Shown: positions 14,622 to 31,541 of the stretch, one piece after another | Layout: every line of letters starts with the position of its first letter | Position numbering within the stretch: position 1 is the stretch's first letter | Origin: Propionivibrio sp. | GTDB taxonomy: Bacteria; Pseudomonadota; Gammaproteobacteria; Burkholderiales; Rhodocyclaceae | Direction: 5' to 3' | Assembly: GCA_029975435.1 (NCBI GenBank) | Contig: JARKPC010000046.1 | Span: 55,873-119,872, forward strand | DNA length: 64,000 bases | The notes under the pieces: model-generated | Seen by the model: the letters and a program-made list of their open reading frames with translations, nothing else | What the model was told of the DNA's origin: nothing | Databases searched by the model: none | Position numbers and translations under genes: made by a program

Positions 14622-15758
14622 CTACAACATTGCTACTCGGTCGAGTTTGCTGGTTACCACATCGTGGCGTAGGTGGCCGTAGTTCTTCTCGATCATGGCT
14701 ACAGAAGTTCCAGCCAGCTTGGCAACTATGAAACTGTCCATGCCAGCGAGGATCATTTCGCTGATAGCTGTATGCCGAAGGCTATACATGACTACCGTTT
14801 CAGGTAATCCCGCTGTGTCGACCGCGTCCTTGAATATCTTTTTCCAGCTGTCCTTATTCCAGCGTTGGCCGTATCCTGTGGTCAGCATGGGGGCGGCTGG
14901 TACTTTCCCTTTTACGGCTTCAGCAAAGAAAACGGCAGCGGCGGTTGAGACAGCCACCTGCCGACGTCCTGTCTTGCCGGTAAGAGTCAGGGCGCACAGT
15001 TGCTTGTCGAAGTCGCCCGCGTTCAAATTGGCGAGTTCTCCAGGGCGGGCGCCAGTGAGAAGTGCGGCCTTGACGAAGAGAGCTAGATCGTCGGGACATG
15101 CGTCGAGCAGGGCTTTGCGTTGTTCCATGTTGAGAAACGCATCTCTGCGGCGTGCACTAACCTTTGCGAAGGCTTGCACGGTTACCCAGCCCGCGTCGGT
15201 GGCAACGAGGCGGTTGCGTAGGGCGAGGTTTAGCGCGGCTTTGAATGTTGCAAGATTGCGGTTTGCCGAGTCTTTCGATTTTCGTACATCCTCATCGTCG
15301 GCGTCTTCGTCGTCGTCAATCTGGTCGTTCATCCACTTTGATATTTGCGACGTGCGGAGCTTGTCGAGTGCTAGCTTTCCTATTGTGGAACAGTAGATCA
15401 GGCGTCGAAAGCGTCCTTCGGCGTCCTTGGCTGTTGATCCCCGGCCTTCGTTCTTGAGGGCAGTCACGTACGCCTCGCATGCCTCTTTTACCGTTGTTGC
15501 CTGTGGGCTTGCTCCCTGTTCGCAACTAGCGATCCACGAGCGTGCAGCCTTGGCTGCATCGTCGTACTTGTCGAAGTTCCCGAGTGCCCGGTATTTTTGT
15601 TTGCCCTCGTCGTCGCGCCAGCGGGCTATCCATGTTCCATCGCCGCTGTTGAGTTTGCGGAATCCAACCGCTGCGCCTTTTTGCATTGGCTCCCAGTAGG
15701 GTTCGCGGCGCGGGGTGAGCTTGTCGCGTTTCGTCTTGCTGTCCAGTGCGTTTGCCAT
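14622..15758 (-). CDS. tyrosine recombinase / phage-type integrase
   Basis: 378 aa; LLTGARPGELANLNAGDF, SLRHTAISEMILAGMDSFIVAKLAGTSVAMIEKNYGH catalytic R...HxxR...Y pattern. Confidence 0.93.
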   Translation of the reverse strand: MANALDSKTKRDKLTPRREPYWEPMQKGAAVGFRKLNSGDGTWIARWRDDEGKQKYRALGNFDKYDDAAKAARSWIASCEQGASPQATTVKEACEAYVTALKNEGRGSTAKDAEGRFRRLIYCSTIGKLALDKLRTSQISKWMNDQIDDDEDADDEDVRKSKDSANRNLATFKAALNLALRNRLVATDAGWVTVQAFAKVSARRRDAFLNMEQRKALLDACPDDLALFVKAALLTGARPGELANLNAGDFDKQLCALTLTGKTGRRQVAVSTAAAVFFAEAVKGKVPAAPMLTTGYGQRWNKDSWKKIFKDAVDTAGLPETVVMYSLRHTAISEMILAGMDSFIVAKLAGTSVAMIEKNYGHLRHDVVTSKLDRVAML

Positions 15759-15892
15759 GATTTTTCTTCATACGGAAACTGTACGGAAATTATATCATGG
15801 ACAATGATGGATATATGTGGACAAAAAATATAGTAAATACGGATACTTAAGAGTTGTTGTTGGATGGGTATGGACGTCATTGGAGCCAATTT

Positions 15893-15943
15893 CCCGCCTT
15901 CACACGGCAGGGGTCACTGGTTCGATCCCAGTACCGCCCACCA
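15893..15943 (+). other. tRNA-Val(CAC) 3' fragment (probable att site)
   Basis: CCCGCCTTCACACGGCAGGGGTCACTGGTTCGATCCCAGTACCGCCCACCA: anticodon arm onward, T-arm and CCA; no pairing 5' half upstream. Confidence 0.75.
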
Positions 15944-15960
15944 ATGGAATCAGGTACTTA

Positions 15961-15984
15961 GGCCATCCAATCGGATGGCCTTTT
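15961..15984 (+). terminator. intrinsic terminator after tRNA remnant
   Basis: GGCCATCC-AATC-GGATGGCC-TTTT perfect hairpin. Confidence 0.75.
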
Positions 15985-15990
15985 GTATTT

Positions 15991-16029
15991 GTGCCCACTC
16001 TGTGCCCATTTTGTGCCCAGCTTGTGCCT
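15991..16029. repeat. four 11-bp-phased GTGCC(CA) repeats
   Basis: GTGCCCA at 15991, 16002, 16013 and GTGCCT at 16024: exact 11-bp period. Confidence 0.75.
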
Positions 16030-16084: not shown

Positions 16085-16303
16085 TTACTCTTGTGACGGC
16101 ACGTCGGGGATGTACTCGAATAGATCACCCACTGCACACCTAAAAAGCGCGCACAGACGGTCAATTGTCTCGACGTCGAGGCGGGTGGCAGTCTCGTTGT
16201 AAAGCAGCGTAATAGTATTTCGATGTAGTCCTGTGATTCGAGCGACATCGACTATTTTCATCTTGCGCTCTCCCATCATTCGAGAGAGGTGACATCTCAC
16301 CAT
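16085..16303 (-). CDS. XRE-family transcriptional regulator
   Basis: MVRCHLSRMMGERKMKIVDVARITGLHRNTITLLYNETATRLDVETIDRLCALFRCAVGDLFEYIP. Confidence 0.85.
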   Translation of the reverse strand: MVRCHLSRMMGERKMKIVDVARITGLHRNTITLLYNETATRLDVETIDRLCALFRCAVGDLFEYIPDVPSQE

Positions 16304-16450
16304 GTCAATCTCCAGGAAAAAATTACATACAGAATGACAAAAAGCTCTTGACAGAGGTCTTTTGCGCCTTAGAATGTCGTTCAGGATGACAAAACGAACG
16401 ATGTAATGGAGTTTTGACATTCCTGATAATCTTAATCTTTGGAGACCGTT

Positions 16451-16684
16451 ATGTCACTAACTTATCTGACTACTGATGAGCTTTCCTCTCTCATCAAGTA
16501 CGACCCCAGAACCATCAGAGAACGCTTGAAAGACAGCGTTCTTCTCGAGGGAACTCATTACATACGCCCATTTGGTGGCCGGAAGATTCTATATATCTGG
16601 GAACACATCGAGCGAGATATGGGAATCATGGTCGCGCAAACGTTTGCTATTCCAATGGCCAATGGAGGAATTTGCCATGGGTAG
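16451..16684 (+). CDS. excisionase-like / small HTH protein
   Basis: MSLTYLTTDELSSLIKYDPRTIRERLKDSVLLEGTHYIRPFGGRKILYIWEHIERDM; directly upstream of and overlapping an integrase gene. Confidence 0.6.
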   Translation: MSLTYLTTDELSSLIKYDPRTIRERLKDSVLLEGTHYIRPFGGRKILYIWEHIERDMGIMVAQTFAIPMANGGICHG

Positions 16685-17951
16685 TGTTCGGGCCAGAAGT
16701 GACAATGGGCTGCTTTTTTTGGATTTTCGGTTCAGGGAAATACGGTGCCGCGAACAAACGGCTCTAACGAATACGGTGGCGAATAGAAAGCGTTTAGAAA
16801 AGGTCATGGAAAGAATTGAAAGCGAGATTGATGCTTGCACCCTCAATTACCGCCAGTTCTTCCCCAACAGCAAGAACGCCGCCAAGTTCGATGCGATTGC
16901 CTCCGTCGTGACGGAGGCGGCGGTACCCGTGTTCGCGCCATCGATGAGTGCGGCGTCCGCAAAGAGCACCCCGCTGTTCAAGGACTTTGCCGAAACTTGG
17001 TTCTCGGAGAAATCGGTGGAATGGCGCGCGTCCCATAAAAAGACGGTGCGCGACGATCTCGACAAGCGCCTCATTCCCCGCTTCGGGGAACAGGAGGTCG
17101 GCAACATCACCAAGGCAGATATTCTCTCGTTCCGTGCAGATCTCGCCAAAGTTCAGGCACGGGGCAAGAGCAGTGCATTGTCCAACCCGCGTATCAACAA
17201 GATCTTGAATCCGCTCAGGCAAGTCCTCAACGAAGCCGCCGACCGCTTTGATTTTCGCATGCCTTTCCAGAACATCAAACAGCTCAAGGTCAAACGCACC
17301 GACGTCGAACCGTTCTCGCTCGACGAAGTCAAGCGACTGATCGAGAGCGTCCGTCAGGACTTCCGCAACTACTTCACCGTGCGCTTCTTCACCGGCATGC
17401 GCACCGGCGAAGTGAACGGCCTGCAATGGAAATACGTCGACTTCGAACGCCGCCTGATCCTCGTCCGGGAAACCATCGTCGACGGCGAAGAGGAATACAC
17501 CAAGACCGACGGCAGCCAGCGCGACATCCAGATGAGCCAGCTCGTCTACGACGCCCTGAAGGAACAGGAGCAGGGCACCCGTCCCGTGTCGAAGTTCGTC
17601 TTCTGCAACCGCTTGGGGCAACCGCTCGACTACAAGAACGTCACCAACCGCGTGTGGAAGCCGCTGCTCCGCCACCTCGGCCTCAAGGTCCGCCGTCCCT
17701 ACCAGTGCCGGCACACCGCCGCCACCCTGTGGCTGGCCAGCGGCGAAGCCCCCGAATGGATCGCCCGGCAACTCGGGCATACCACCACGGAAATGCTCTT
17801 CCGGGTGTACAGCCGCTATGTTCCCAACCTCACCCGGCGCGACGGCTCCGCCTTCGAACGCCTGCTCACCTCGGCGATCGGTAACGGAACCCGTCAGGTC
17901 GTACTCCATGAAGGGGATACCGCATCCCACGTCACGGAGGGCCAAGTATGA
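16677..17951 (+). CDS. tyrosine recombinase with Arm DNA-binding domain
   Basis: MGSVRARSDNGLLFLDFRFREIRCREQTALTNT...; FFTGMRTGEVNGLQWKYVD, QCRHTAATLWLASGEAPEWIARQLGHTTTEMLFRVYSRYVPN. Confidence 0.93.
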   Translation: MGSVRARSDNGLLFLDFRFREIRCREQTALTNTVANRKRLEKVMERIESEIDACTLNYRQFFPNSKNAAKFDAIASVVTEAAVPVFAPSMSAASAKSTPLFKDFAETWFSEKSVEWRASHKKTVRDDLDKRLIPRFGEQEVGNITKADILSFRADLAKVQARGKSSALSNPRINKILNPLRQVLNEAADRFDFRMPFQNIKQLKVKRTDVEPFSLDEVKRLIESVRQDFRNYFTVRFFTGMRTGEVNGLQWKYVDFERRLILVRETIVDGEEEYTKTDGSQRDIQMSQLVYDALKEQEQGTRPVSKFVFCNRLGQPLDYKNVTNRVWKPLLRHLGLKVRRPYQCRHTAATLWLASGEAPEWIARQLGHTTTEMLFRVYSRYVPNLTRRDGSAFERLLTSAIGNGTRQVVLHEGDTASHVTEGQV

Positions 17952-18865
17952 GCGACTTCATTACTACGGCCGCGCCGTCCGGCACGCCCGCGGCGTCAGA
18001 ACGACGGCCCCTGGCTCCGTACTACCGCCTGACCAGCCTGATGCGACTCCCCGCCAAGAGCGGAACCGGCGTCTATAACGAAGCCACCCTCTATCACGCC
18101 GGAGAGACCCTGCGCATCGCCTGGACCTCGCCGACCGTCGACAGTCGCCTGCGCCGCGGCGACATCGTCACCGTCCGCGAAGGGCGGGCGAGGGCGCACC
18201 GCCCCGAGGTGCTCCCGGTGCTGCGCATCGCCCGCGTCGATCAGCCGGTGGCCGCGGTCAACCCGTTCGATCTCGTGCCTTCGTCTTGGCTTCATGATCG
18301 AGCGCTCACCCAACGCGCAAAAAATCTTTGGGAGCAGATGGAGCGTCCCCTGCAGCATCTGGTCACAGCCGTCTTCTGGGACGGGGCGCGTTTCTATCGC
18401 TATGTCACCGGCCCTCGGTCGGCGGCCGATTATCCGGCGCCGCCCGGCGCCAACTTCCGCCGCTCCGTCGCCCTCGCCGAAGAAGCGCTGCTGCTGGCCG
18501 ACGGCCTGCCGAATGTCGCGCGCGGCGTGCTCATCGCCGCCGCTCTCTTGCACGAGGCCGGCAAGGCCGACGATTTCCATCTCGCGGCGGACGGCAGCGG
18601 GGTGACGCTGAGTGAGCGCGGCCGCTGGATCGGCTACCCGCAGACCGTTCTTGAATGGCTGGCGGTCGCCCGAACCAAGGTCATCGTCCCGGACGCGCTG
18701 TACCACTTGTTGGTCCACGTCCTGATCGCCGTCCACCGGCCGCCGGAATCCCCACAGGCGATCGAGACGGCCATCCTGAAGGTGGCCCGCGGCTTTGTCG
18801 ACAGCCCCGAACGTGTGCGGAACGCGGACAGGCTCATCGCCCGCGCCTCGCCCTCCCTACACTGA
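17948..18865 (+). CDS. OB-fold + HD-domain protein, YhaM-like architecture
   Basis: N-terminal OB-like region, then GVLIAAALLHEAGKADDF and LLVHVLIAVHRPPESPQAIETAILKVARGFVDS; overlaps integrase stop by ATGA. Confidence 0.6.
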   Translation: MSDFITTAAPSGTPAASERRPLAPYYRLTSLMRLPAKSGTGVYNEATLYHAGETLRIAWTSPTVDSRLRRGDIVTVREGRARAHRPEVLPVLRIARVDQPVAAVNPFDLVPSSWLHDRALTQRAKNLWEQMERPLQHLVTAVFWDGARFYRYVTGPRSAADYPAPPGANFRRSVALAEEALLLADGLPNVARGVLIAAALLHEAGKADDFHLAADGSGVTLSERGRWIGYPQTVLEWLAVARTKVIVPDALYHLLVHVLIAVHRPPESPQAIETAILKVARGFVDSPERVRNADRLIARASPSLH

Positions 18866-18929
18866 TCCGCGCGCGCGGTGCCGTCGGCACGACGTCGACG
18901 GCGCCGCCCCAGCCAACCTGGAAACTTCC

Positions 18930-19145
18930 ATGACTCAAACCCAACTCCAACCGACCTTCATGCAACGCTGCCGCGCCGAATGGCAGCGCCTTAATCCCCA
19001 TTACCTCCCTGAATCGAAAGGACTCATCGCCGTATTCAAGGCCGGGTGCCGGGAGGGATGGGTGGGGTTTTTCGCTCCGCTGCGCTTCGTGTGGTGGCTG
19101 CTCATCCGGAGCTGGCGCCAAGAGGGAAGGAGGGGGCCCCCATGA
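18930..19145 (+). CDS. small hypothetical protein
   Basis: 71 aa ORF in the operon: MTQTQLQPTFMQRCRAEWQRLNPHYLPESKGLIAVFKAGCREGWVGFFAPLRFVWWLLIRSWRQEGRRGPP. Confidence 0.5.
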   Translation: MTQTQLQPTFMQRCRAEWQRLNPHYLPESKGLIAVFKAGCREGWVGFFAPLRFVWWLLIRSWRQEGRRGPP

Positions 19146-19480
19146 AACCGCCTCGCCACTCCCCGGCCCGGACCACGGTGCGCCTCAAACCCGGACGGCT
19201 TCTCAGACTGACGCCCCGCTTCCTCAAACACGCCGGATGGCGAGTCGGAGACCAATTGCTCGTGCGCCTTGAACAGGATCACCTCGTCTGGACCCGTCTG
19301 CCGGAGGAACGGACCTGGCGGGTCGATCGTCTGCGCCGGCGCACCGGATCCACGGCAGACCGTGACGCCGCCAGCCGACGGATCCGAACCTTCGGGGAGT
19401 ACCTCGCCTTGAGACGGGAACGCCCCGGGCAGGCGAGCTTCTTTGACCCGATACGCGATTGTTCCACGGAGAAACCATGA
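19142..19480 (+). CDS. SymE/AbrB-fold-like protein
   Basis: RTTVRLKPGRLLRLTPRFLKHAGWRVGDQLLVRLEQDHLVWTRL resembles the SymE-type swapped-hairpin segment; overlaps upstream stop. Confidence 0.5.
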   Translation: MKPPRHSPARTTVRLKPGRLLRLTPRFLKHAGWRVGDQLLVRLEQDHLVWTRLPEERTWRVDRLRRRTGSTADRDAASRRIRTFGEYLALRRERPGQASFFDPIRDCSTEKP

Positions 19481-19833
19481 TGGATCGAGAGACACGACGG
19501 GTCCTGCTCTGTTTGGGGCTCATGATGACCGTGTGCCTGGCCACGATCGCGGTGATCCGGAGGGACGGGGCGCCCCGGGAGAGACGCCTCCTGGTTCTCG
19601 ATGCCGTGGGCGGCGAGGGCGCCCGGCGGCTCGGCCTGACGACCTCACCGGTGGAGCACAGCGTCTGTGAAGTGGAGGCGGAGGCGGCCCAGGGTTTACG
19701 ATGGGTCACGATCGGAACGGTGGACATTCGCGCCGAGCACCTCATCGCCGTGCGTGAAGCGGGGCCGCCATCGCCCGATGCGGCCATACAACAGCAGCGT
19801 GAACAGCAACAACCCCTGAAGGAACATGCATGA
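19477..19833 (+). CDS. hypothetical single-TM protein
   Basis: MMDRETRRVLLCLGLMMTVCLATIAVIRRDG... start overlaps upstream stop. Confidence 0.5.
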   Translation: MMDRETRRVLLCLGLMMTVCLATIAVIRRDGAPRERRLLVLDAVGGEGARRLGLTTSPVEHSVCEVEAEAAQGLRWVTIGTVDIRAEHLIAVREAGPPSPDAAIQQQREQQQPLKEHA

Positions 19834-20744
19834 AAGTGACTTACGACAGCACCGAGGACGTATTCTGCATCCGCTTCTCCGACACCCCGGTCGTCAAGGA
19901 CATCTCCTACGACTGGAATGTCAGCGTGGGTTACGATGCCGACGGCCAACTTGCCGAACTGACGATCGTCGATTTGTCCAGCGTCCTTTCCCGGGATACC
20001 GAAAAGGACGAGACAACGCTGGTTCTCTCCGAACGGGAATCGCGCCGGCTGCTTGAATTGATGGAATCTCCGACGCCGCGAACGGAGCGCTTTCTGGCGG
20101 CAATCGCGCGGCACCGTGAATGGCTCCGCGACAACGAGCCGTCCGCTGGTGTCGACGCCTGCGCCTGGATGGCCCATCAGGCGAGCCTGTTGCGGAGCGG
20201 AGCGCTCAACGACGCGCAACGCGACATTCTGGCCACTTTCTTTGAGGAGCAGGTCGCGACAAAACGCCTGGACGTCGAGGCCCCTCTGCGCCGACTGCTC
20301 GTGGATCGGTGGAGGTTGGACCATCTGGCGTCCGACGCGGGCGTGGCACAGCAAATGGGGGAGTTCCAGTTACGAGTACGTGAAGCACTGCAGGCCTCCC
20401 CATCGCTTCGAGAAACCGTGACGGCCCGACTCGATGCCGTCTGGGGCGAAGCGAGAATGGCGCTCGATCATTCCCCCGCGATCATAGGATACAAGGTGCC
20501 GGAACGACCGGAGACGTGCCCCTATACCCTCGTTGACTTGGGGCTGGCCGAAGCGGCACCGAACGGGCGAACGGAACCCCCGTCCAGCACGTCCAGCGGC
20601 GGTGGATTGTCCACGTGCAGTTCCCACATCACCCCCGTCGGTAGAAACCTCTTCCTCGACCTTGGCTTCCCGCCCGAGGAGGCGGAGCGGTTGAAAGCGG
20701 AAAGCGATCGACGCCTGTCTGGCAAGAGCGACAACGGCCCGTAA
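19830..20744 (+). CDS. composite antitoxin-like protein: DUF2283-like + DUF1778-like + DUF29-like + HigA/XRE-like segment
   Basis: MKVTYDSTEDVFCIRFSDTPVVKDISYDWNVSVGYDADGQLAELTIVDLS (DUF2283-like); TTLVLSERESRRLLELMESPTPRTERFLAA (DUF1778-like); WMAHQASLLRSGALNDAQRDILATFFEEQ...CPYTLVDLGLAEAAP (DUF29-like); NLFLDLGFPPEEAERLKAESDRRL (HigA-type). Confidence 0.6.
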   Translation: MKVTYDSTEDVFCIRFSDTPVVKDISYDWNVSVGYDADGQLAELTIVDLSSVLSRDTEKDETTLVLSERESRRLLELMESPTPRTERFLAAIARHREWLRDNEPSAGVDACAWMAHQASLLRSGALNDAQRDILATFFEEQVATKRLDVEAPLRRLLVDRWRLDHLASDAGVAQQMGEFQLRVREALQASPSLRETVTARLDAVWGEARMALDHSPAIIGYKVPERPETCPYTLVDLGLAEAAPNGRTEPPSSTSSGGGLSTCSSHITPVGRNLFLDLGFPPEEAERLKAESDRRLSGKSDNGP

Positions 20745-21001
20745 GGGTTTTACGATCAGGCGGCGATGAGAGACACCCACGCGATCCAATCGAAGGAAGG
20801 TTCTCTCATGAAGACGCGTCTGATTCCCCGTTCGCTGCCGTGAAGACGGAGCCCTTCGAACGTCCCTTTGTTTTTTCGAGTCACCGCGTCTTTGATACCC
20901 TACTCGCCGCGTCGGTCTCTTGATCGGCCACTGCGGTCATTGAGCATCTGGCCTCAATCGGGCGGTAATGCGCTGGATAGGCGAAGCTCCATCGGAACGA
21001 G

Positions 21002-21451
21002 CTATGCTTTTCCATTTTGCTGTTTTTCCAGTGCTCCGAGGCGTTCTCGGAGCTCTCGTTCATTCTGGCGGCGTTGTGTTGCATCGCGAGCTACAGCAAC
21101 GGACCCGATCACTTTCCCATTTCCGTTGTGAACGACGGCAAAGCTCATTTCGACGTAGATCGCGCCCTTGGAGTGGGTAAGAGACCGAGTGATCGCGGCA
21201 TGTCCTTCAAGTCGGGTCTTACCGGATGCCATGGCACGATTAAAACCTGACCAATGAGCCTCGCGCAGGTGTTCTGGAATGATCAGATCGAGGCTTTGTC
21301 CAATGGCACCCTCTTTGGGATAGCCAAATAGGGCTTCGGCCGCTGCGTTCCATCCACGGATAATTCCTTCCTTATCCGAATAGATCATGGCGTCGGCCAT
21401 TTGCTCGACGATCAGGCGGTTGATATCGGCATATTCGGTGTTTTCCATCAT
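21002..21451 (-). CDS. stand-alone PAS domain protein
   Basis: LIVEQMADAMIYSDKEGIIRGWNAAAEALFGYPKEGAIGQSLDLIIPEHLREAHWSGFNRAMASGKTR...GSVAVARDATQRRQ. Confidence 0.9.
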   Translation of the reverse strand: MMENTEYADINRLIVEQMADAMIYSDKEGIIRGWNAAAEALFGYPKEGAIGQSLDLIIPEHLREAHWSGFNRAMASGKTRLEGHAAITRSLTHSKGAIYVEMSFAVVHNGNGKVIGSVAVARDATQRRQNERELRERLGALEKQQNGKA

Positions 21452-21597
21452 TTCTCCTTTGTACGGTTCTCCAACAAAACGTCAGGATTCGTGACGAATC
21501 GCCATTTGTTCCCGCTTGCGGCCGGGACAAATGCGCACAGGCAACAATAATCGAACATCTGTGGCACAAAGCGCCAAATCGTCCGTCTGTCGAATCG

Positions 21598-21825
21598 CTA
21601 TGGGTACATGAACACAATTTCCCATCCGTCTTCAAGCGGCAAGGACATATCCCGGAAACACATGCCGTTCACCGCCACAGCCGAAATCGATAACAAGGCT
21701 CCCGGATACGACAGCTTCAGCTGCCCGACCAAATCCTGCAGGCTCATTCCCTCGGCGTAAGCGACTTCCAGGCGATCCCTACCGGCCCGCTCCGCCACTG
21801 TGTCAAAAAACCGCACCATGATCAT
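21598..21825 (-). CDS. MoaD/ThiS family sulfur carrier-like protein
   Basis: MIMVRFFDTVAERAGRDRLEVAYAEGMSLQDLVGQLKLSYPGALLSISAVAVNGMCFRDMSLPLEDGWEIVFMYP (no C-terminal GG). Confidence 0.7.
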   Translation of the reverse strand: MIMVRFFDTVAERAGRDRLEVAYAEGMSLQDLVGQLKLSYPGALLSISAVAVNGMCFRDMSLPLEDGWEIVFMYP

Positions 21826-22254
21826 CAGGCACCACCTCCAGTGAGTTTCTGCCAGTGCCTTGCATCGCACCTCCTGGTGTTTCTGCAGGCTCGTTGACCA
21901 CTGTTTGGCCGGCATGGAAATGACGATTCAAGAGCCCCGGCCACGACCCGCAGCCCATGGAGTATCTCCCCATCCCGAGCGACAAGTTCTTGTACTCAGG
22001 ACTCCAAAGCGTCTTCAGCCAAGGCATCGGATGGAGGAGTGTCACGCCTCGCTTCATTTGAACCAGCACCCTCCGAGCTCGTGGAAACAGCCACACCTTC
22101 GGTGTCCGAACTCCGATCAAGCGGCAGAATCGGTGACCACATGCAGCATCCGGGTTTTGTAGCAGGGCGTTTTGATACGACGCGAGTGCTGAGTTCTTCT
22201 TTCATCGCTGCCTCCCTTTCCTTTATAGAACCTTCTTCATTCCTTTTTGCATCT

Positions 22255-23052
22255 TCATTGAACCAATGGCGTGTCAGCCGCTTCGATGTCCACGCCGACG
22301 ATCTTGGCCTGCCCTGCGAGTTGGTGCATATATTGACGCAAGGCGGTGACATAGGTCTTCTGCCGCATCGACATGGTCACGGCACCGCGCACGTCCTCGA
22401 AGGCGGGTGCGACGCCCGCCTTGCGCTCCAGCACTTCCACCACGTGCAGGCCGAAACGGCTATGTACCAGGCGCGGCAGCACCCCGATCTCGGTGTGGCC
22501 GAACAGTTCCTTGGCGAATTCCGGCGCGCAGTCGCTCTGCGTCAGCCAGCCGAGGTGACCGCCCTCGGCACCGCTCGGGCAGTTGGACTGGTCGCGCGCC
22601 GCCTGGGCGAAACGGTCTTCGAGCGCATTAGCGTTGTTTCCGTCGTGGCAGCGCACGTCGAGCAGGGTCGTTTCAGCGCGATTGCGCAGGGCAACGACGT
22701 CGACGCCCTGCGTGACGGCAAAGAGGATGTGCCGTGCCCTGACGCGTTCGCCGGTGGCATAGCGCGCCGGATTCGCGGCGTAATGGCGCCGGCATTCTTC
22801 TTCCGACGGCTCGGGAATCGTCAGCTTTCGTTCCAGCAAGGCTTCGATGGCCTGCGTCGCGGCTTCACTGAGGATGCCGTCGGTGCCCGGCTCATTGCCG
22901 ACCGGCAACAGTCCTTCGGTAACGGCGGCCTGGCGTAGCAGTTCGGAGCACGCACGCTGGCGTCGTTCGTCGGCCGAGAGTGCTTCGTTGGCGCTGTTGA
23001 GTGCGACGCCGTTGATCGAGGCGATTTCCTGCTTTATCTGGCTCGTCTGCAT
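22255..23052 (-). CDS. parvulin-type peptidyl-prolyl isomerase (nar-cluster PpiC/NifM-like)
   Basis: RVRARHILFAVT...CPSGAEGGHLGWLTQSDCAPEFAKELFGHTEIGVLPRLVHSRFGLHVVEVLERK. Confidence 0.9.
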   Translation of the reverse strand: MQTSQIKQEIASINGVALNSANEALSADERRQRACSELLRQAAVTEGLLPVGNEPGTDGILSEAATQAIEALLERKLTIPEPSEEECRRHYAANPARYATGERVRARHILFAVTQGVDVVALRNRAETTLLDVRCHDGNNANALEDRFAQAARDQSNCPSGAEGGHLGWLTQSDCAPEFAKELFGHTEIGVLPRLVHSRFGLHVVEVLERKAGVAPAFEDVRGAVTMSMRQKTYVTALRQYMHQLAGQAKIVGVDIEAADTPLVQ

Positions 23053-23062
23053 GATCGGATCC

Positions 23063-23797
23063 TTAAACGCTGGCGCCGGGATGGCGCGGTTGGTTGTGCC
23101 CGGCCGGGACGTTCAGGCGGCGCGAACGGACCACCTGGTACGGCCGCAATAGATAGCCGACGGTAGCGAAGCCGCTCCAGACGTGGGCCAGTCGGGTGAA
23201 GGGGAAAATCAGAAAGATGCTCATACCGAGCACGATGTGCGCCTTGAACACCCAGCTCACATCGGCCAGCAGTGCCGACGCCCCCGGACGGAAAGTCACG
23301 ATGCGCTGCGCCCATTCAGCCAGCAGCAGCATCACACTACCGTCGAGATGCTGCGCCGACAGCGGCACGCTGGCCAGACCGAGCGCCAGTTGCAGCCAGA
23401 GCAACACGAGCATCACGATGTCGCTGGTCTTCGAGTTCACGCGGATACGCGGTTCGGAGAGACGGCGATGCAGCAGGATCGTCACGCCGATAAAGGCCAG
23501 CGTGCCGGCAATGCCGCCGGCGGTCATCGCCAGCACCTGCTTCTGGCCGGCGGTGATGAACGGCTCGTAGACGAAATGTGGCGTCAGCATGCCGGCGAAG
23601 TGCCCGAAGAACAAGAACAGCACGCCGACGTGGAACAGGTTGCTGCCCCACCGCAATTGCCCCGCCTTGAGCAGCTGCGACGAATCGCTCTTCCAGGTGT
23701 ACTGGTCGCGGTCGAAGCGGATCAGGCTGCCGAGCAGGAAAACGCTGAGGCAGATGTAGGGATACAGGCCGAACAGGAAGGTGTCGAGTGTTTTCAT
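23063..23797 (-). CDS. narI: respiratory nitrate reductase gamma subunit
   Basis: FLFGLYPYICLSVFLLGSLIRFDRDQYTWKSDSSQLL...HVGVLFLFFGHFAGMLTPH...FPFTRLAHVWS. Confidence 0.95.
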   Translation of the reverse strand: MKTLDTFLFGLYPYICLSVFLLGSLIRFDRDQYTWKSDSSQLLKAGQLRWGSNLFHVGVLFLFFGHFAGMLTPHFVYEPFITAGQKQVLAMTAGGIAGTLAFIGVTILLHRRLSEPRIRVNSKTSDIVMLVLLWLQLALGLASVPLSAQHLDGSVMLLLAEWAQRIVTFRPGASALLADVSWVFKAHIVLGMSIFLIFPFTRLAHVWSGFATVGYLLRPYQVVRSRRLNVPAGHNQPRHPGASV

Positions 23798-24507
23798 GGG
23801 GATACTCCGTTGTGTGCAGCGCCTGGAGATTTCAGTCCGGACGCTTCGTTTCTGACGAAGGTGATCGGCTGCGCCTGGCCCGATCGGCCTTGGCCCTTCG
23901 ACGAGCAGCCGTCGAACACGGCCGGTTCTTCCCAGGCCGCGTCGATGGCTTCGTCGGGCTCGATCCTGACGGCGTGCGCCTGCTCTCCGGCCAGTTCGAG
24001 CAGCGCGCCGAGCACGCTGGCGTACGGGCTCTTGCGCTGCTGCAGGGCGTTGAAGATGGCGTTGAGCAGATGCGCCATCTCGCCGAGGAAGGCGCGCGCG
24101 ATCTGCGGCGTCTGCGTCGAGGCGAATTCGAGCATCACCGGCAGATAGTCCGGCAACTCACCCGGTGCCAGGAAGAGGCCGGCCTGTTCGTAGATCTTGA
24201 TCAGATCGGTCATCGCCGGGCCACGGTCGCGCGAGTCGCCATGCACGTGCTCGAAGAGATGAAGCGAGGTCGAACGGCCGCGATCGAACAGCTCGATGAA
24301 CTCGCTCTCGTTACGGAGCGGGTCGCCGGTTTCGAGCTTTTGCATCAGCGCGTACAGCTCGTCCTTGCGTGCGCCGCTCAGGGCGCTGTCGGCGTGAAGT
24401 GCGGTGCGCATGTCGATGAGATCGACGCGCAAGGCGCTGTCGGGATAGGCCAGGAGCCGCGACAGCACGCGCAGGGCGATGGAGAGATTTGGAAGGCTGG
24501 CTGCCAT
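23794..24507 (-). CDS. narJ: nitrate reductase molybdenum cofactor assembly chaperone
   Basis: RVLSRLLAYPDSALR...TSLHLFEHVHGDSRDRGPAMTDLIKIYEQAGL; position between narH and narI. Confidence 0.95.
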   Translation of the reverse strand: MAASLPNLSIALRVLSRLLAYPDSALRVDLIDMRTALHADSALSGARKDELYALMQKLETGDPLRNESEFIELFDRGRSTSLHLFEHVHGDSRDRGPAMTDLIKIYEQAGLFLAPGELPDYLPVMLEFASTQTPQIARAFLGEMAHLLNAIFNALQQRKSPYASVLGALLELAGEQAHAVRIEPDEAIDAAWEEPAVFDGCSSKGQGRSGQAQPITFVRNEASGLKSPGAAHNGVSP

Positions 24508-24509
24508 GG

Positions 24510-26033
24510 CTAGACCTCCGCCTTGATCGGGATGGTGCGGTGCTTCTTGCCGCCGAACAGGCTGGCTTCGCTGGCGCCATCCGAGCAGCCGTTGCCGAAC
24601 GAGAAGCCGCAGCCGCCGCGCATGTCGAAGGTGTTCTCGGCATACTCGCGATGCGTGCTCGGAATCACGAAACGGTCCTCGTAATTTGCGATGGCCATCA
24701 CGTGGTACATCTCTTCAACTTCCGCCTGGGTCATTTTTACCTGCTCCAGAACCGCCATGTTGACCTTTCCATCGACATGCTTTGAGCGCTGGAAGGCGCG
24801 CATGGCCAGCATGCGTTCCAGTGCGCGCTCAACCGGTTGCGTATCGCCCGCTGTGAGCAGATTGGCCAGGTACTTGACCGGGATACGCAACTGTTTGACG
24901 TCCGGAATCTCGCCATTGACGCCGAGATGGCCGGCATTGGCGGCGGCACTGATCGGCGAGAGCGGTGGCACGTACCAGACCATCGGCAGCGTGCGGTACT
25001 CGGGGTGCAGCGGCAGCGCCACCTTCCATTCGACGGCCATCTTGTACACCGGGCTGTTGCGCGCGGCGTCCATCCAGGCGTCGGGGATGCCGTCTATGCG
25101 GGCCTGTTCGATGACCTTCGGGTCGTGCGGATCGAGGAACACGTTGAGTTGCGCCTGGTACAGGTCCCGGTCGTGCTCGACGCTGGCCGCAGCTTCGATG
25201 CGGTCGGCGTCATAGAGCAGCACGCCGAGGTAGCGGATGCGGCCGACGCAGGTTTCCGAACAAACGGTCGGCTGACCTGCTTCGATGCGCGGGTAGCAGA
25301 AGATGCACTTCTCGGCCTTGCCGCTTTTCCAGTTGTAGTAGATCTTCTTGTACGGACAGCCGGACACGCACATGCGCCAGCCGCGGCACTTGTCCTGGTC
25401 GATCAGCACGATGCCGTCTTCCTCGCGCTTGTAGATCGAACCGGACGGGCAGCTCGCCACGCAGGTCGGGTTGAGGCAGTGCTCGCACAGACGCGGCAGG
25501 TACATCATGAAAGTATTTTCAAACTGGCCGTACATCTCCTTCTGGATGTCGTCAAAGTTCTTGTCCTTGCTGCGCTTGGAGAACTCGCCGCCGAGAATTT
25601 CTTCCCAGTTCGGACCCCAGACGATCTTCTCCATGCGCTTGCCGGTAATCAGGCTGCGCGGCCGTGCCGTCGGCATCGCCTTGGATTCGGGTGCCGATTG
25701 CAGATGGTCGTAGTCGAACGTGAAGGGTTCGTAGTAGTCGTCGATCTCCGGCAGATTCGGGTTGGCGAAGATGCGCATGAGCAGCTTCCACTTGCCGCCC
25801 TGGCGCGGTTCGATCTTGCCGTCCGCCTTGCGGACCCAACCGCCGTTCCAGCGATCCTGGTTCTCCCATTCCTTCGGGTAGCCGATGCCGGGCTTGGTCT
25901 CGACGTTGTTGAACCACGCGTACTCCATGCCGGGACGGCTGGTCCACACGTTCTTGCAGGTGACCGAGCAGGTGTGGCAACCGATGCATTTGTCCAGGTT
26001 CAGGACCATGCCGATTTGAGCGCGAATTTTCAT
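24510..26033 (-). CDS. narH: respiratory nitrate reductase beta subunit
   Basis: MKIRAQIGMVLNLDKCIGCHTCSVTCKNVWTSRPGMEYAWFNNVETKPGIGYPKEWENQ; CEHCLNPTCVASCPSGSIYKREEDGIVLIDQDKCRGWRMCVSGCPYKKIYYNWKSGKAEKC. Confidence 0.98.
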   Translation of the reverse strand: MKIRAQIGMVLNLDKCIGCHTCSVTCKNVWTSRPGMEYAWFNNVETKPGIGYPKEWENQDRWNGGWVRKADGKIEPRQGGKWKLLMRIFANPNLPEIDDYYEPFTFDYDHLQSAPESKAMPTARPRSLITGKRMEKIVWGPNWEEILGGEFSKRSKDKNFDDIQKEMYGQFENTFMMYLPRLCEHCLNPTCVASCPSGSIYKREEDGIVLIDQDKCRGWRMCVSGCPYKKIYYNWKSGKAEKCIFCYPRIEAGQPTVCSETCVGRIRYLGVLLYDADRIEAAASVEHDRDLYQAQLNVFLDPHDPKVIEQARIDGIPDAWMDAARNSPVYKMAVEWKVALPLHPEYRTLPMVWYVPPLSPISAAANAGHLGVNGEIPDVKQLRIPVKYLANLLTAGDTQPVERALERMLAMRAFQRSKHVDGKVNMAVLEQVKMTQAEVEEMYHVMAIANYEDRFVIPSTHREYAENTFDMRGGCGFSFGNGCSDGASEASLFGGKKHRTIPIKAEV

Positions 26034-26043
26034 GGCCTTCTCC

Positions 26044-29000
26044 TTAGGCAGTTGCACTGGCGTTGTCGGCGGAAACCGGCTCGTCATCCAACCAGTCGAT
26101 CTTGTTCATCTTGCGCACGATCACGAACTCGTCGCGGTTGGTGCCGATCGTCCCGTAGTAGTTGAATCCGTACGAAAACTGGGCATAGCCGCCGATCATG
26201 TGCGTCGGTTTCAGGACGATGCGCGTCACCGAGTTGTGGATACCGCCGCGCATGCCGGTGATTTCCGAGCCCGGCGTGTTGATGATCTTTTCCTGCGCGT
26301 GGTACATCAGCACCATGCCCGGATTGACCCGCTGGCTGACCACGGCGCGCGCGGCGATGGCACCGTTGATGTTGAACAGCTCGACCCAGTCGTTATCGAC
26401 AATGCCGGCACGTTTGGCGTCGTCCTCGGAGAGCCAGATGACCGGCCCGCCGCGATTCAGGGTGAGCATGATCAGGTTGTCGGTGTAGGTCGAGTGGATG
26501 CCCCACTTCTGGTGCGGCGTGATGAAGTTGAGCGCGATCTCGGTGTTGCCGTTCGGCTTGATGTTGTGGAGATCGGCGGTCGTCTTGAGATCAACCGGCG
26601 GACGATAGCTCGAGAAGCCTTCTCCGAACGCGGTCATCCACGGGTGATCCATGTAGAACTGCTGGCGCCCGGTCAGCGTGCGCCATGGAATCAGCTCGTG
26701 CACGTTGGTGTAGCCGGCGTTGTAGGAAACCGTCTCCGACTCGATGCCGCTCCACGTCGGCGAGCTGATGATCTTGCGCGGCTGAGCCTGGATGTCGCGG
26801 AAGCGGATCTTCTCGTCCTCGCGATACAGCGCCAGATGCCTGTGATCGCGTCCAGTCTGCTTGCTCAGCGCCTCCCAGGCCTTGACGGCGACGTGGCCGT
26901 TAGTTTCCGGTGCCAGTTGCAGCACGACTTCGCAGGCGTCGATGTCGGTCGCGATGCTCGGCATGCCGCAGGTCGCACCTTCGTCTTTGACCAGCCCGTT
27001 CAACTCGCCAAGTTGCTTCACCTCGGTCTGCGTGTTCCAGGCGATGCCCTTTCCGCCGTTGCCGACCTTGTTCATCAAGGGGCCGAGCGCAGTGAAGCGC
27101 TTGTAGAGGTTCGGGTAGTCACGCTCGACGACGGCGATGTTCGGTGCCGTCTTGCCGGGGATCAGGTCGATCTCGCCGCGCTTCCAGTCCTGCACGCCAA
27201 AGGGCTGCGCCAACTCGGCCGGCGAGTCGTGCATCAGCGGCGAGAGCACAATTTCGCGTTCGACACCGAGATGACCAACGCAGACTTCGCTGAACTTTTT
27301 GGCGAAGCCCTTGTAGATCTCCCAGTCGCTGCGCGATTGCCAGGCCGGATCGACCGCCGTCGACAGCGGATGGATGAAGGGGTGCATGTCGCTGGTGTTG
27401 AGATCGTTCTTCTCGTACCAGGTTGCCGTCGGCAGCACGATGTCGCTGTAAAGGCAGGTGGTGCTCATGCGGAAGTCCAGCGTCACCAGCAGATCCAGCT
27501 TGCCTTCCGGCGCTTTGTCGTGCCACACCACTTCGCTGGGCTTGGCTTCATCGTGGCCCAAATCCTTGCCCTGCACGCCGTGGGAGGTGCCGAGCAGGTG
27601 CTTGAGGAAGTATTCGTGGCCTTTGCCTGAAGAACCCAAGATGTTGGAACGCCAGACGAACATGTTGCGCGGCCAGTTGTCCGGGTGGTCCGGATCTTCG
27701 CAGCTCATTTGCAGCGTGCCGTCCTTCAGCCCCTTGGCCGTGTAGTCCTTGGGATCGAGGCCGGCAGCGACAGCATTCTTCACCACCTGCATCGGGTTGG
27801 TCTTGAGTTGCGGCGCGGAAGGCAGCCAGCCCATGCGTTCGGCGCGCACGTTGTAGTCGATCATGCTGCCGCCGTACTGCGCCTTGTCGGCGAGCGGCGA
27901 GAGCACTTCTTCCATGCCCAGTTTTTCGTAGCGCCACTGATCGGTGTGCGCGTAGAAGAAGCTGGTCGAGTTCATCTGGCGTGGCGGACGGATCCAGTCC
28001 AGGGCAAAGGCGAGCGCCGTCCAACCGGTCTGCGGGCGCAGTTTTTCCTGCCCGACGTAGTGCGCCCAGCCGCCGCCGCTCTGGCCGATACACCCGCACA
28101 TCATCAGCATGTTGATGACGCCGCGGTAGTTCATGTCCGAGTGATACCAGTGGTTCATCGCGGCGCCGATGATGACCATCGAGCGGCCGTGCGTCTTGTC
28201 GGCGTTGTCAGCGAACTGGCGCGCGACCGTGATCAACTGCTCGCGTGGCGTGCCGGTGATGCGTTCCTGCCAGGCCGGCGTGTAGGGCGTGTCGTCGTCG
28301 AAGTCCTTCGCCGCCAGTTCACCCGGCAGACCGCGCGCGACGCCGTAGTTGGCGACCTGCAGGTCGAAGACCGTGGCGACCAGCACATCCTTTCCATCCT
28401 TGCCCAGTGCGATGCGCTGCACGGGGACGGTACGCACCAGCACGTTGTTGCTGGCGGCGCCGGTGGCGTTGTTGGGGAAATGCTCGCTTTCGATGCCGCC
28501 GAAGTAAGGGAAACCCACCTTCGCAGTTGCCGCACTTGGGTTCTGGCCTTCCAGCACCGAGAGTTTTAGCTTGACCTCGTTACCGTGCGTGGCTTCCTTG
28601 GCTTCCAGATTCCATTGCCCCTGATCGGCGCGCCCGTCCGGACCCCAGCGGAAACCGATTGCGCCGTTCGGCAGTACAACCTGGCCGTTTTCGTCGAAGG
28701 CGACGGTCTTCCACTCTGGGTTGTTGGTCGCGCCGAGCGCGTCGGCGAAGTCGGACGCACGCACATAGCGATCGGGCACCATCGCCGTTTCACCGTTTGG
28801 CAGTTGCTGCTCCTTGAGCATGACCAGCATCGGCATGTCGGTGTAGCGGCGCACGTAGTCGTCGAAGTAGGTACTTCGCTGCTTGCCCCCCTCGGGGAAG
28901 TAGAACTCCTTGAGGATGACGTGGCCCATCGCCATGGCCACGGCGGCGTCGGTGCCCTGCTTGGGCTTCATCCAGATGTCGGAGAGCTTGGCGACTTCGG

Positions 29001-29853
29001 AGTAATCCGGCGTGACGGCGACCGTCTTGGTGCCCTTGTAGCGCACCTCAGTGAAGAAGTGCGCGTCCGGCGTGCGCGTCTGCGGCACGTTCGAACCCCA
29101 GGCGATGATGAAGTTGGCGTTGTACCAGTCGGCCGATTCAGGCACGTCGGTTTGTTCGCCCCAGATCTGCGGGCTGGCCGGCGGCAGGTCGCAATACCAG
29201 TCGTAAAAGCTCATGCAGACGCCGCCGATCAGGCTCAGGTAGCGGCTGCCGGCGGCGTAGGAAACCATCGACATGGCCGGGATCGGCGAGAAACCGATGA
29301 CGCGGTCCGGACCGTACTTCTTGATGGTATGTACGTTGGCGGCAGCGACGATCTCGTTGACCTCGTCCCAGTTCGACCGCACGAAACCGCCGAGGCCGCG
29401 CACGCTTTGATAGTTCTTGCGCTTGGCGTCGTCCTGAACGATCGACGTCCACGCGTCGACCGGATCCTTCGACAACCGTGCCTCGCGCCACAGCTTGAGC
29501 AGGCGGCCGCGCACCATTGGATACTTCACGCGGTTGGCGCTGTAGAGATACCACGAGTACGACGCGCCGCGCGCGCAACCCCGCGGTTCGTGGTTGGGCA
29601 TGTCCCAGCGTGTGCGCGGGTAATCGGTCTGCTGGGTTTCCCAGGTGACGATGCCGCCCTTGACGTAGATCTTCCACGAGCAGGAACCCGTGCAATTGAC
29701 GCCGTGCGTTGAACGCACGATCTTGTCGTGCGCCCAGCGGTCGCGGTAGGCGTCTTCCCAGGTGCGGTCTTCGCCGTTGGTGACGCCGTGGTCGCCGGAG
29801 AATGGCTCTCGGGCTTGCGAAAAATAGCTGAGTCGATCGAGGAAATGGCTCAT
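26044..29853 (-). CDS. narG: respiratory nitrate reductase alpha subunit
   Basis: 1269 aa; THGVNCTGSCSWKIYVKGGIVTWETQQTDYPRTRWDMPNHEPRGCARGASYSWYLYSANRVKYPMVRG. Confidence 0.98.
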   Translation of the reverse strand: MSHFLDRLSYFSQAREPFSGDHGVTNGEDRTWEDAYRDRWAHDKIVRSTHGVNCTGSCSWKIYVKGGIVTWETQQTDYPRTRWDMPNHEPRGCARGASYSWYLYSANRVKYPMVRGRLLKLWREARLSKDPVDAWTSIVQDDAKRKNYQSVRGLGGFVRSNWDEVNEIVAAANVHTIKKYGPDRVIGFSPIPAMSMVSYAAGSRYLSLIGGVCMSFYDWYCDLPPASPQIWGEQTDVPESADWYNANFIIAWGSNVPQTRTPDAHFFTEVRYKGTKTVAVTPDYSEVAKLSDIWMKPKQGTDAAVAMAMGHVILKEFYFPEGGKQRSTYFDDYVRRYTDMPMLVMLKEQQLPNGETAMVPDRYVRASDFADALGATNNPEWKTVAFDENGQVVLPNGAIGFRWGPDGRADQGQWNLEAKEATHGNEVKLKLSVLEGQNPSAATAKVGFPYFGGIESEHFPNNATGAASNNVLVRTVPVQRIALGKDGKDVLVATVFDLQVANYGVARGLPGELAAKDFDDDTPYTPAWQERITGTPREQLITVARQFADNADKTHGRSMVIIGAAMNHWYHSDMNYRGVINMLMMCGCIGQSGGGWAHYVGQEKLRPQTGWTALAFALDWIRPPRQMNSTSFFYAHTDQWRYEKLGMEEVLSPLADKAQYGGSMIDYNVRAERMGWLPSAPQLKTNPMQVVKNAVAAGLDPKDYTAKGLKDGTLQMSCEDPDHPDNWPRNMFVWRSNILGSSGKGHEYFLKHLLGTSHGVQGKDLGHDEAKPSEVVWHDKAPEGKLDLLVTLDFRMSTTCLYSDIVLPTATWYEKNDLNTSDMHPFIHPLSTAVDPAWQSRSDWEIYKGFAKKFSEVCVGHLGVEREIVLSPLMHDSPAELAQPFGVQDWKRGEIDLIPGKTAPNIAVVERDYPNLYKRFTALGPLMNKVGNGGKGIAWNTQTEVKQLGELNGLVKDEGATCGMPSIATDIDACEVVLQLAPETNGHVAVKAWEALSKQTGRDHRHLALYREDEKIRFRDIQAQPRKIISSPTWSGIESETVSYNAGYTNVHELIPWRTLTGRQQFYMDHPWMTAFGEGFSSYRPPVDLKTTADLHNIKPNGNTEIALNFITPHQKWGIHSTYTDNLIMLTLNRGGPVIWLSEDDAKRAGIVDNDWVELFNINGAIAARAVVSQRVNPGMVLMYHAQEKIINTPGSEITGMRGGIHNSVTRIVLKPTHMIGGYAQFSYGFNYYGTIGTNRDEFVIVRKMNKIDWLDDEPVSADNASATA

Positions 29854-29885
29854 GGAATGCCTCTTTGGTAAGGGTTAAGCCGAAG

Positions 29886-31514
29886 TCAGGGGTTCTTGAT
29901 TTCCGAACCGGCGCGCAGGTAGAACCACCAGTTCAGGATCAGGCACAGGGCATAGAAGACCGCGAAGCCGTACATCGCCACTTGCGGCGTGCCTCGGGTG
30001 ATCTGCTCGCCGATCACGACCGGCGCGATGAAAGCGCCGTAGGCGGCGACGGCCGACGTCCAGCCGAGGACCGGGCCGGCCTGCTGGCGATCGAAGATGA
30101 AGCCGATGCTGCGGAAGGTCGAGCCGTTACCGATGCCGCTGGCCAGGAAAAGCACGATGAACAAGCCCATGAACGCCGGGAAATGCTCCTCCGGTGTTGC
30201 CGAGCCGTAGGCGAGCAGCATTACGTAGCCGACGGCGCCGGACGCCACGACCATTACGGCGGAAATGATCTGGGTGACGATCGAGCCGCCGATCTTGTCG
30301 GAAATCCAGCCGCCGACCGGGCGCGCCGCGGCACCGACGAAGGGGCCGATCCACGAGTAGGTCAGCGCGGGCGGCGCGTTCGGGTTGGTCAGCGTGTGCT
30401 GCATGACGCCCGCCGCGTCGGGTACGTGGCTGATGCCGAAGATCACCTTGATCGATAGCGGCAATACCATCGAAAAGCCGATGAACGAGCCGAAGGTGAC
30501 GATGTAGAGAACGGTCATGGACCAGGTGTGTTTGTTCCTGAAGATCGCGAACTGGCGGGCGACGTTTTCCTTCATCGCACCGAATGCCGCCAGACGCATG
30601 GCCAGGAGCGCGCTCGTGATGTCCAGCGGTACCGCCACCCACATGCTGATCAGGCCGAGGCCTGTCGGCTTCGGAAGGTAAAGGTAGAGGCAGAGGATCG
30701 AGGGAACGAAGGCCAGGGTGTAGAGGTAGGTGATCTTGCTGAAAGCGAACAACGGGTTGCCGGTGTCGGGCGAAACGGTTTTCAGGTTGTTCATGCCGAA
30801 CCAGCAGAGGATGGACAGCGGCACCAGCGAGAGCACCCAGGCGAAGCCGGCGTTCTGGACCCAGGTTGGCGTGCCGGCGGCGATCTTGCCGAGAATCCAG
30901 CCGCTGTCCTTCTGCAAGGTCATCGGTTCGCCCCCGATGACACCGAACAGGCTCACCGTCATCACCAGCGGGATGACGATTTGCATGGTGGTGACGCCGA
31001 AGTTGCCGAGGCCGGCGTTGAGGCCGAGCGCCGTGCCCTGCAACCGCTTGGGGAAAAAGGTGCTGATGTTGGACATCGAGCTGGCGAAGTTGCCGCCGCC
31101 GACGCCCGACCACAGCGCCATCAGCTGGAACGCCCACAACGGCCACTCTGGATGCTGCAGCACGATGCCAGTGCCGATCGCCGGCGAGAGCAGCATCGCC
31201 GTCGTCAGGAAGATGGTGTTACGGCCCCCGGCCAGACGGATCAGGAAGGAGGCGGGGATGCGCATCGTTGCGCCGGAGATGCCGGCGATGGCGGTCAGCG
31301 TAAACAGTTCGGCCTGGCTGAACGGGAAGCCGAGGTTCAGCAGCTGCACGGTGATGACGCCCCACATTCCCCAAACGGCAAAACCGCAGAGCAGGGCCGG
31401 GATCGAGATCCAGAGGTTGCGGTAGGCGATGCGTTTGCCGGTCGATTCCCAGAATCCGTCCTCTTCTGGCCGCCAGTCCGCGATATCGGTGCGCGACGAT
31501 GCTGTTTTTTCCAT
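29886..31514 (-). CDS. narK: NarK-family MFS nitrate/nitrite transporter
   Basis: 542 aa; GNFASSMSNISTFFPKRLQGTALGLNAGLGNFGVTTMQ nitrate signature; precedes narG. Confidence 0.93.
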   Translation of the reverse strand: MEKTASSRTDIADWRPEEDGFWESTGKRIAYRNLWISIPALLCGFAVWGMWGVITVQLLNLGFPFSQAELFTLTAIAGISGATMRIPASFLIRLAGGRNTIFLTTAMLLSPAIGTGIVLQHPEWPLWAFQLMALWSGVGGGNFASSMSNISTFFPKRLQGTALGLNAGLGNFGVTTMQIVIPLVMTVSLFGVIGGEPMTLQKDSGWILGKIAAGTPTWVQNAGFAWVLSLVPLSILCWFGMNNLKTVSPDTGNPLFAFSKITYLYTLAFVPSILCLYLYLPKPTGLGLISMWVAVPLDITSALLAMRLAAFGAMKENVARQFAIFRNKHTWSMTVLYIVTFGSFIGFSMVLPLSIKVIFGISHVPDAAGVMQHTLTNPNAPPALTYSWIGPFVGAAARPVGGWISDKIGGSIVTQIISAVMVVASGAVGYVMLLAYGSATPEEHFPAFMGLFIVLFLASGIGNGSTFRSIGFIFDRQQAGPVLGWTSAVAAYGAFIAPVVIGEQITRGTPQVAMYGFAVFYALCLILNWWFYLRAGSEIKNP

Positions 31515-31541
31515 GGTTTGTTCTCGAAGGGTCGATATCAG

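Follow-up and report, generated by a model that had tools for sequence, protein, structure and literature searches.

The integrase-led gene run

The window analysed here is a 64,000-nucleotide stretch of a Propionivibrio sp. genome (assembly GCA_029975435.1, contig JARKPC010000046.1, positions 55,873 to 119,872). Positions 16085-20744 of this window hold a divergent XRE gene opposite a tightly packed run of rightward genes led by a tyrosine integrase and its excisionase-like (xis-like) partner, with all open reading frames (ORFs) of the run present. In all likelihood, an integrative genomic island that targets tRNA genes has inserted in the 3' half of tRNA-Val(CAC), and this module is its attachment-proximal head. 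As expected of such an island, the 3' half of a tRNA gene lies beside the module and a tyrosine integrase stands at the attachment-proximal end. The features of the locus are as follows.

14622..15758, - strand: integrase of a neighbouring element, A, outside the module (PF00589)
15896..15943, + strand: tRNA-Val(CAC) 3' half, anticodon arm to CCA, 48 nt, identical to the intact gene on contig C142; left attachment-side junction
15960..15981, + strand: terminator-like hairpin after the tRNA fragment (consensus match only)
15988..16028, no strand: four TGTGCCC direct repeats with 11-bp spacing, candidate arm-type integrase sites (from sequence)
16085..16303, - strand: XRE/Cro-C1 repressor, 72 aa (PF13443, E=4e-21; earlier drawn as ORF 16085-16420)
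16329..16401, + strand: control region with CAGAATGA and CAGGATGA repeats around a TTGACA-16-TAGAAT promoter-like site (16348-16375)
16451..16684, + strand: excisionase-like small protein, 77 aa, found upstream of int in 57/61 compared loci
16677..17951, + strand: tyrosine integrase (int) with Arm-DNA-bind_2, 424 aa (PF00589, E=4e-20; PF12167, E=1.2e-15, above cut-off)
17948..18865, + strand: HDOB, a YhaM-like protein with OB-fold and HD domain, 305 aa (family profile and predicted fold; HD ligands largely lost)
18930..19145, + strand: S71, small conserved protein, a clade accessory (relatives in loci L008, L033, L094, L096, L097 and L107)
19142..19480, + strand: weakly SymE/AbrB-like protein, 112 aa, cargo or accessory (74% identical copy on contig C131)
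19477..19833, + strand: small predicted membrane protein, cargo or accessory (ORF call)
19830..20744, + strand: DUF2283-DUF29 fusion with a further C-terminal segment, 304 aa, cargo (PF10049 and PF01724, each about E=1e-8)
20745..20773, no strand: probable right end of the element (comparison with genome G018; no attachment repeat)

The ORFs and overlaps listed in an initial annotation of this DNA were all recovered. The xis-like gene stops at 16684 and int begins with the ATG at 16677, int stops at 17951 and HDOB begins with the ATG at 17948, and further overlaps follow from the end of S71 onward (19142/19145, 19477/19480 and 19830/19833); the sole gap lies between HDOB and S71 (18865 to 18930). 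Given these overlaps, the genes could plausibly be transcribed together from the integrase promoter. The XRE gene probably starts at 16303 rather than at the start of the 111-aa ORF, because the longer frame would cover the region's best promoter-like site and because XRE proteins of the family measure about 66-86 aa. For the xis-like gene, the ATG at 16451 is the more likely start.

Protein assignments bore out the annotation in part. Its Arm-type integrase corresponds to PF00589 with Arm-DNA-bind_2 (PF12167), and its SymE-like label is weak (PF08845, E=0.12, 13 bits vs a 29-bit cut-off), with no match for this protein among solved structures. What had been read as an antitoxin fusion combines DUF2283 and DUF29, both above their Pfam cut-offs and neither an established antitoxin; the three parts of this 304-aa protein (residues 1-51, 109-244 and 262-299) match separate small proteins in relatives. 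Neither the xis-like protein nor the small membrane protein had a match in Pfam, NCBIfam or PHROG.

Recurrence beside tRNA genes

A scan of 84,980 species genomes yielded 69 HDOB loci, mostly from Rhodocyclaceae, Zoogloea, Gallionellaceae and other Betaproteobacteria, and the 61 with enough upstream sequence were compared. The loci were picked by HDOB, so the HDOB count is itself no evidence. Together with HDOB, int was found in 58/61 loci, xis in 57 and an XRE gene on the opposite strand in 54. Present in about 54 of the 61 loci and recurring in dozens of genomes in this neighbourhood comparison, the XRE-xis-int-HDOB order goes beyond chance. S71 was found in five of the 61 loci and the SymE-like gene in one. 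By these counts, the conserved module is XRE, xis, int and HDOB only, and the genes from S71 rightward, which the initial annotation had included, are cargo or clade accessories.

An intact tRNA gene on the same strand lies upstream in 38/61 loci, usually 0.6-0.9 kb ahead of the cassette; its type is Arg(CCG) in 22, Pro(CGG) in seven, Met(CAT) in five, Val(CAC) in two and another in two. Repeats spaced by 11 bp exceed all 60 shuffles in 36 of the 61 loci, the window among them. The nearest integrase relative has the same tRNA target in 38/42 loci (label shuffles: mean 17.4, maximum 29), an agreement to which shared ancestry contributes. In the reverse test, starting from the integrase, every relative with downstream sequence and an identity of 62% or more had HDOB behind it, save one that lies at a contig end. 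The control region of the window resembles those of the D. agitata and L094 relatives, and its CAGAATGA and CAGGATGA repeats may act as operators; a shared XRE operator motif is not family-wide, two copies being present in only 5/61 loci.

Elements flanked by direct tRNA repeats measure about 9.8 kb (L058) and 11.0 kb (L109). In the distal tRNA fragments (L058:17560-17700, L109:18640-18740 and L008:11640-11800), the anticodon loop and 3' end are preserved and part of the variable/T arm is missing, a pattern that suggests exchange at the anticodon loop followed by pseudo-tRNA decay. A second copy of the module in the window's own genome, on contig C131, adjoins a tRNA-Arg(CCG) 3' fragment and shares int at 73-74% and HDOB at 85% identity, along with relatives of S71, the SymE-like protein and the membrane protein. 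Three int-HDOB copies occur at different places in another genome, G295 (L042 and L043 on C6; L050 on C31). Distant HDOB-like proteins from Planctomycetes and others (L113-L119) have no recognised integrase neighbour.

Cargo varies across the family and includes type I restriction-modification (R-M), Zac-like and type I CRISPR systems as well as non-defence genes. For example, ORFs of the C131 copy match ZacB (2e-18) and SNF2-type helicases from defence systems, ZacC among them. Other cargo comprises type I R-M (L104, L074 and L056), a methylase system (L110) and Cas3 of type I-E (L082), assigned by proximity rather than from located right ends. The cargo tested at L058 and L109 was not recognised as defence, and no gene of the window module from the integrase to the DUF2283-DUF29 fusion matched PADLOC. 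At E<=1e-20, 68 PADLOC models matched downstream and 32 upstream of the tRNA (77 large proteins each), a tally of models rather than of proteins or independent loci, in which the upstream tracts include other islands; defence enrichment is not claimed on these counts, only that some cargo is defence.

Junctions and flanking DNA

The window holds no intact tRNA. An intact tRNA-Val(CAC) follows gltX on contig C142 of the same genome, and a search of this genome for other tRNA-Val fragments returned only C105 and C142. In two Dechloromonas relatives, an intact tRNA-Val(CAC) lies 619 nt before int. The gltX-tRNA-Val(CAC) locus is an integration hotspot: in same-genus genomes (L175-L187), the sequence downstream differs in nearly every genome, and no clean empty site was found among the tRNA-Val loci of the genus. 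Because TACGGAAA repeats occur both near the start of the element A integrase (about 15770-15797) and directly after the intact tRNA-Val on C142, element A most likely sits between the intact tRNA and the present module (element B), across a contig gap. Elements A and B appear to form a tandem array at one tRNA-Val(CAC) hotspot. Beyond the tRNA on the C142 side (L007; 7022-7300 region) lies an 860-aa ORF (L007:8410-10992). In G005 and G024, two copies of the tRNA 3' half stand 12-14 kb apart.

At the other side, G018, a genome of the same genus, matches the window at 99.7-99.98% identity over positions 20773-32483, and its contig breaks off at 20773. A search of G018 for the module gave no close copy, only a 68%-identical integrase fragment elsewhere. 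This comparison fits a right end near 20.75-20.77 kb, which is likely without being proven. In D. agitata (G799), a search with 11-mers over 40 kb found no second repeat except the tRNA itself and one chance-like match.

Further genes lie around the element. To the left of the window (L195-L196, C105:1-40 kb), a stretch with phage-like genes, one of them for a tail sheath protein (PF04984), resembles a prophage that is possibly Mu-like. Type I-F CRISPR-Cas genes, including Cas2/3f (PADLOC E=0), occupy L197:4273-10901 (C105, about 44-51 kb), and nar genes lie to the right of element B.

The YhaM-like protein and the kind of element

The profile of the HDOB family matches YhaM (9h3f, E=1.9e-17, also 2.3e-12). 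An AlphaFold model of the window protein (predicted local distance difference test score 89.5, predicted template-modelling score 0.84) shows a five-stranded OB fold followed by a helical HD bundle, and its top Foldseek match, the only one in the PDB below 0.001, is YhaM (E=6e-6). The OB and HD architecture of YhaM is therefore present in HDOB, as in the YhaM / CBF1 type of 3'-5' exonuclease, and the HD motifs are intact in most members: most of the 27 aligned proteins keep HH...H, HD, GH and D. Unlike YhaM / CBF1, HDOB is encoded behind an integrase on an island, and its similarity in sequence is remote; under the NCBIfam YhaM equivalog, a relative reached 47 bits vs the 460-bit cut-off and the window copy had no match. 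The first HH and the GH are absent from L094, L097, L100, L108 and the window copy. In the window copy, HH has become YP, H has become R, HD has become HE and GH has become GY, and the distal D is not kept. YhaM degrades single-stranded RNA and DNA, its homologues first came to notice as DNA binders, and a D193A change inactivates the Staphylococcus aureus enzyme (PMC11347170). Because most HD ligands are lost, the window protein is probably a binder, not a nuclease.

The initial annotation matched the module to no standard element type. Judged by its sequence, this is a real recurring island family of a kind already known: non-autonomous, integrase-driven and cargo-bearing. It matches the tRNA/tmRNA-targeted tyrosine-integrase islands with variable, often defence, cargo (PMC12595487; hitchers, PMC11389934). 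Like the tmRNA-targeted IntY islands I23, I44 and I55, the present family has a tRNA-like gene as target, a tyrosine integrase close to one end, direct repeats (here in L058 and L109), cargo that varies and includes defence, and no autonomous-transfer genes (PMC12595487). The core of those islands places intY and alpA at opposite ends, often with RadC, YqaJ or inovirus Gp2-like genes (PMC12595487), whereas here it is a compact XRE-xis-int-HDOB set beside tRNA-Arg, -Pro, -Met or -Val with a YhaM-like protein. PF12167 (DUF3596) marks the IntBPP-1 subgroup of tyrosine recombinases, which has the same architecture of Arm-DNA-bind_2, SAM-like and catalytic domains; its examples include the phage integrases of BPP-1, the Stx2a phage and Gifsy-2 (PMC8138268), whereas the present integrases drive islands without virion genes. 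No description of a YhaM-like gene paired with an integrase or mobile element was found, a weak form of evidence that covers open-access papers only. Gamma-Mobile-Trio islands are also led by tyrosine recombinases and carry defensive cargo, with another trio of genes, and are set apart here by description only.

A 12.4-kb circle from Acinetobacter lwoffii, annotated as plasmid pALWED3.4 (NZ_CP032289.1), carries XRE-xis-int with an integrase of 53% identity, a tRNA 3' end without a full tRNA, and GTGACC-type arm-type repeats. Its layout is as expected for an excised circle.

Three other explanations were weighed. It is quite unlikely that an ordinary integrative and conjugative element (ICE) or prophage, truncated here, has its left edge in these genes. 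PF12167 integrases do also serve phages (BPP-1 and Gifsy-2; PMC8138268), the right end of the element was not found, and one HDOB member weakly matches the HD region of the TraI relaxase (TraI_2, E=3e-4). Yet the module has its own attachment-side anatomy and recurs with unrelated cargo, which upholds its description as a distinct integrase-led mobile module. The reported lack of conjugation and phage structural genes also held, both in the module and among the 25 commonest Pfam families of the relatives' largest downstream proteins. There was no phage DNA match, and HDOB relatives numbered none on 72,556 plasmids and one in 2.9 million viral contigs. Beyond 20.77 kb, the sequence is shared with G018 at over 99.7% identity, and L058 and L109 look like complete elements of about 10-11 kb that have the two attachment repeats and neither transfer nor virion genes. 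The proposal that HDOB is a divergent MOBH-type relaxase, which would make the islands integrative and mobilizable elements, is very unlikely. MOBH relaxases do have an HD-type fold and the HD region of HDOB weakly matches MobH and ICE TraI models, but these matches are short (about 30 residues), and the proposal was rejected on model scores (17.8 vs 200 bits); YhaM gives a stronger match to HDOB (1.3e-12) and ranks first by fold, and the window protein lacks most HD ligands. An OB domain is not known to be part of MOBH relaxases.

It is also unlikely that the genes from the integrase to the DUF2283-DUF29 fusion form one functional unit, for defence or as a toxin-antitoxin system, expressed with the integrase. 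The overlaps run to the last gene, the S71, SymE-like and membrane protein genes recur in the C131 copy, and a DUF2283-like gene lies downstream in L107. Against this stand the absence of PADLOC matches, the rarity of S71 and the SymE-like gene among the comparable loci, and a Zac-like system on C131 where the window has the DUF gene.

A tentative proposal, reasonable but short of probable, is that XRE-xis-int-HDOB marks an undescribed family of helper-dependent islands that recruited a YhaM-like protein as a recombination or maintenance factor, with a non-catalytic single-stranded nucleic acid binder in the window lineage. Under the main reading, that of a tRNA-targeted island, the likely working is as follows. 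The XRE protein would repress the promoter at 16348-16375. Once repression is lifted, the xis-like protein and the integrase, the latter bound to the four 11-bp-spaced arm repeats, would bring about recombination between the ends and release the island in circular form, a step supported by the Acinetobacter circle, which pairs the same cassette with a tRNA 3' end. HDOB, whose translation is coupled to that of the integrase, would probably handle single-stranded nucleic acid in excision, re-integration or maintenance, the window protein binding without cutting, and the genes behind it are exchangeable cargo. Because no transfer genes were seen, the island would depend on a helper phage or conjugative element to pass between cells.

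Several observations weigh against this main reading or against an intact island in the window. The function of HDOB is read solely from its fold. HDOB is mostly missing behind integrases of 51-60% identity, so the integrase cassette does not generally depend on it; pALWED3.4 also lacks it, its integrase being followed by a small protein, DUF1376 and an ATP-binding protein. Integrase and HDOB divergence are only modestly correlated (Spearman 0.235; 10/999 permutations as high), and HDOB may at times part from its integrase. In the window, no right attachment repeat was found (tRNA 3' end with up to three mismatches; exact 12-mers over the whole window; 9-mers over 19-25 kb), and without one this copy could be a remnant. 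No empty site was recovered, the G018 contig ending at the junction.

The four-gene head with its arm repeats offers a usable marker for tRNA-gene islands with ends that are difficult to define, chiefly among Betaproteobacteria, and some of these islands carry R-M, Zac-like or CRISPR systems. The constant presence of a YhaM-like gene behind the integrase raises a testable question about the role of YhaM-type nucleic acid handling for an integrating element. It also raises the question of why one lineage drops the active site yet retains HDOB.

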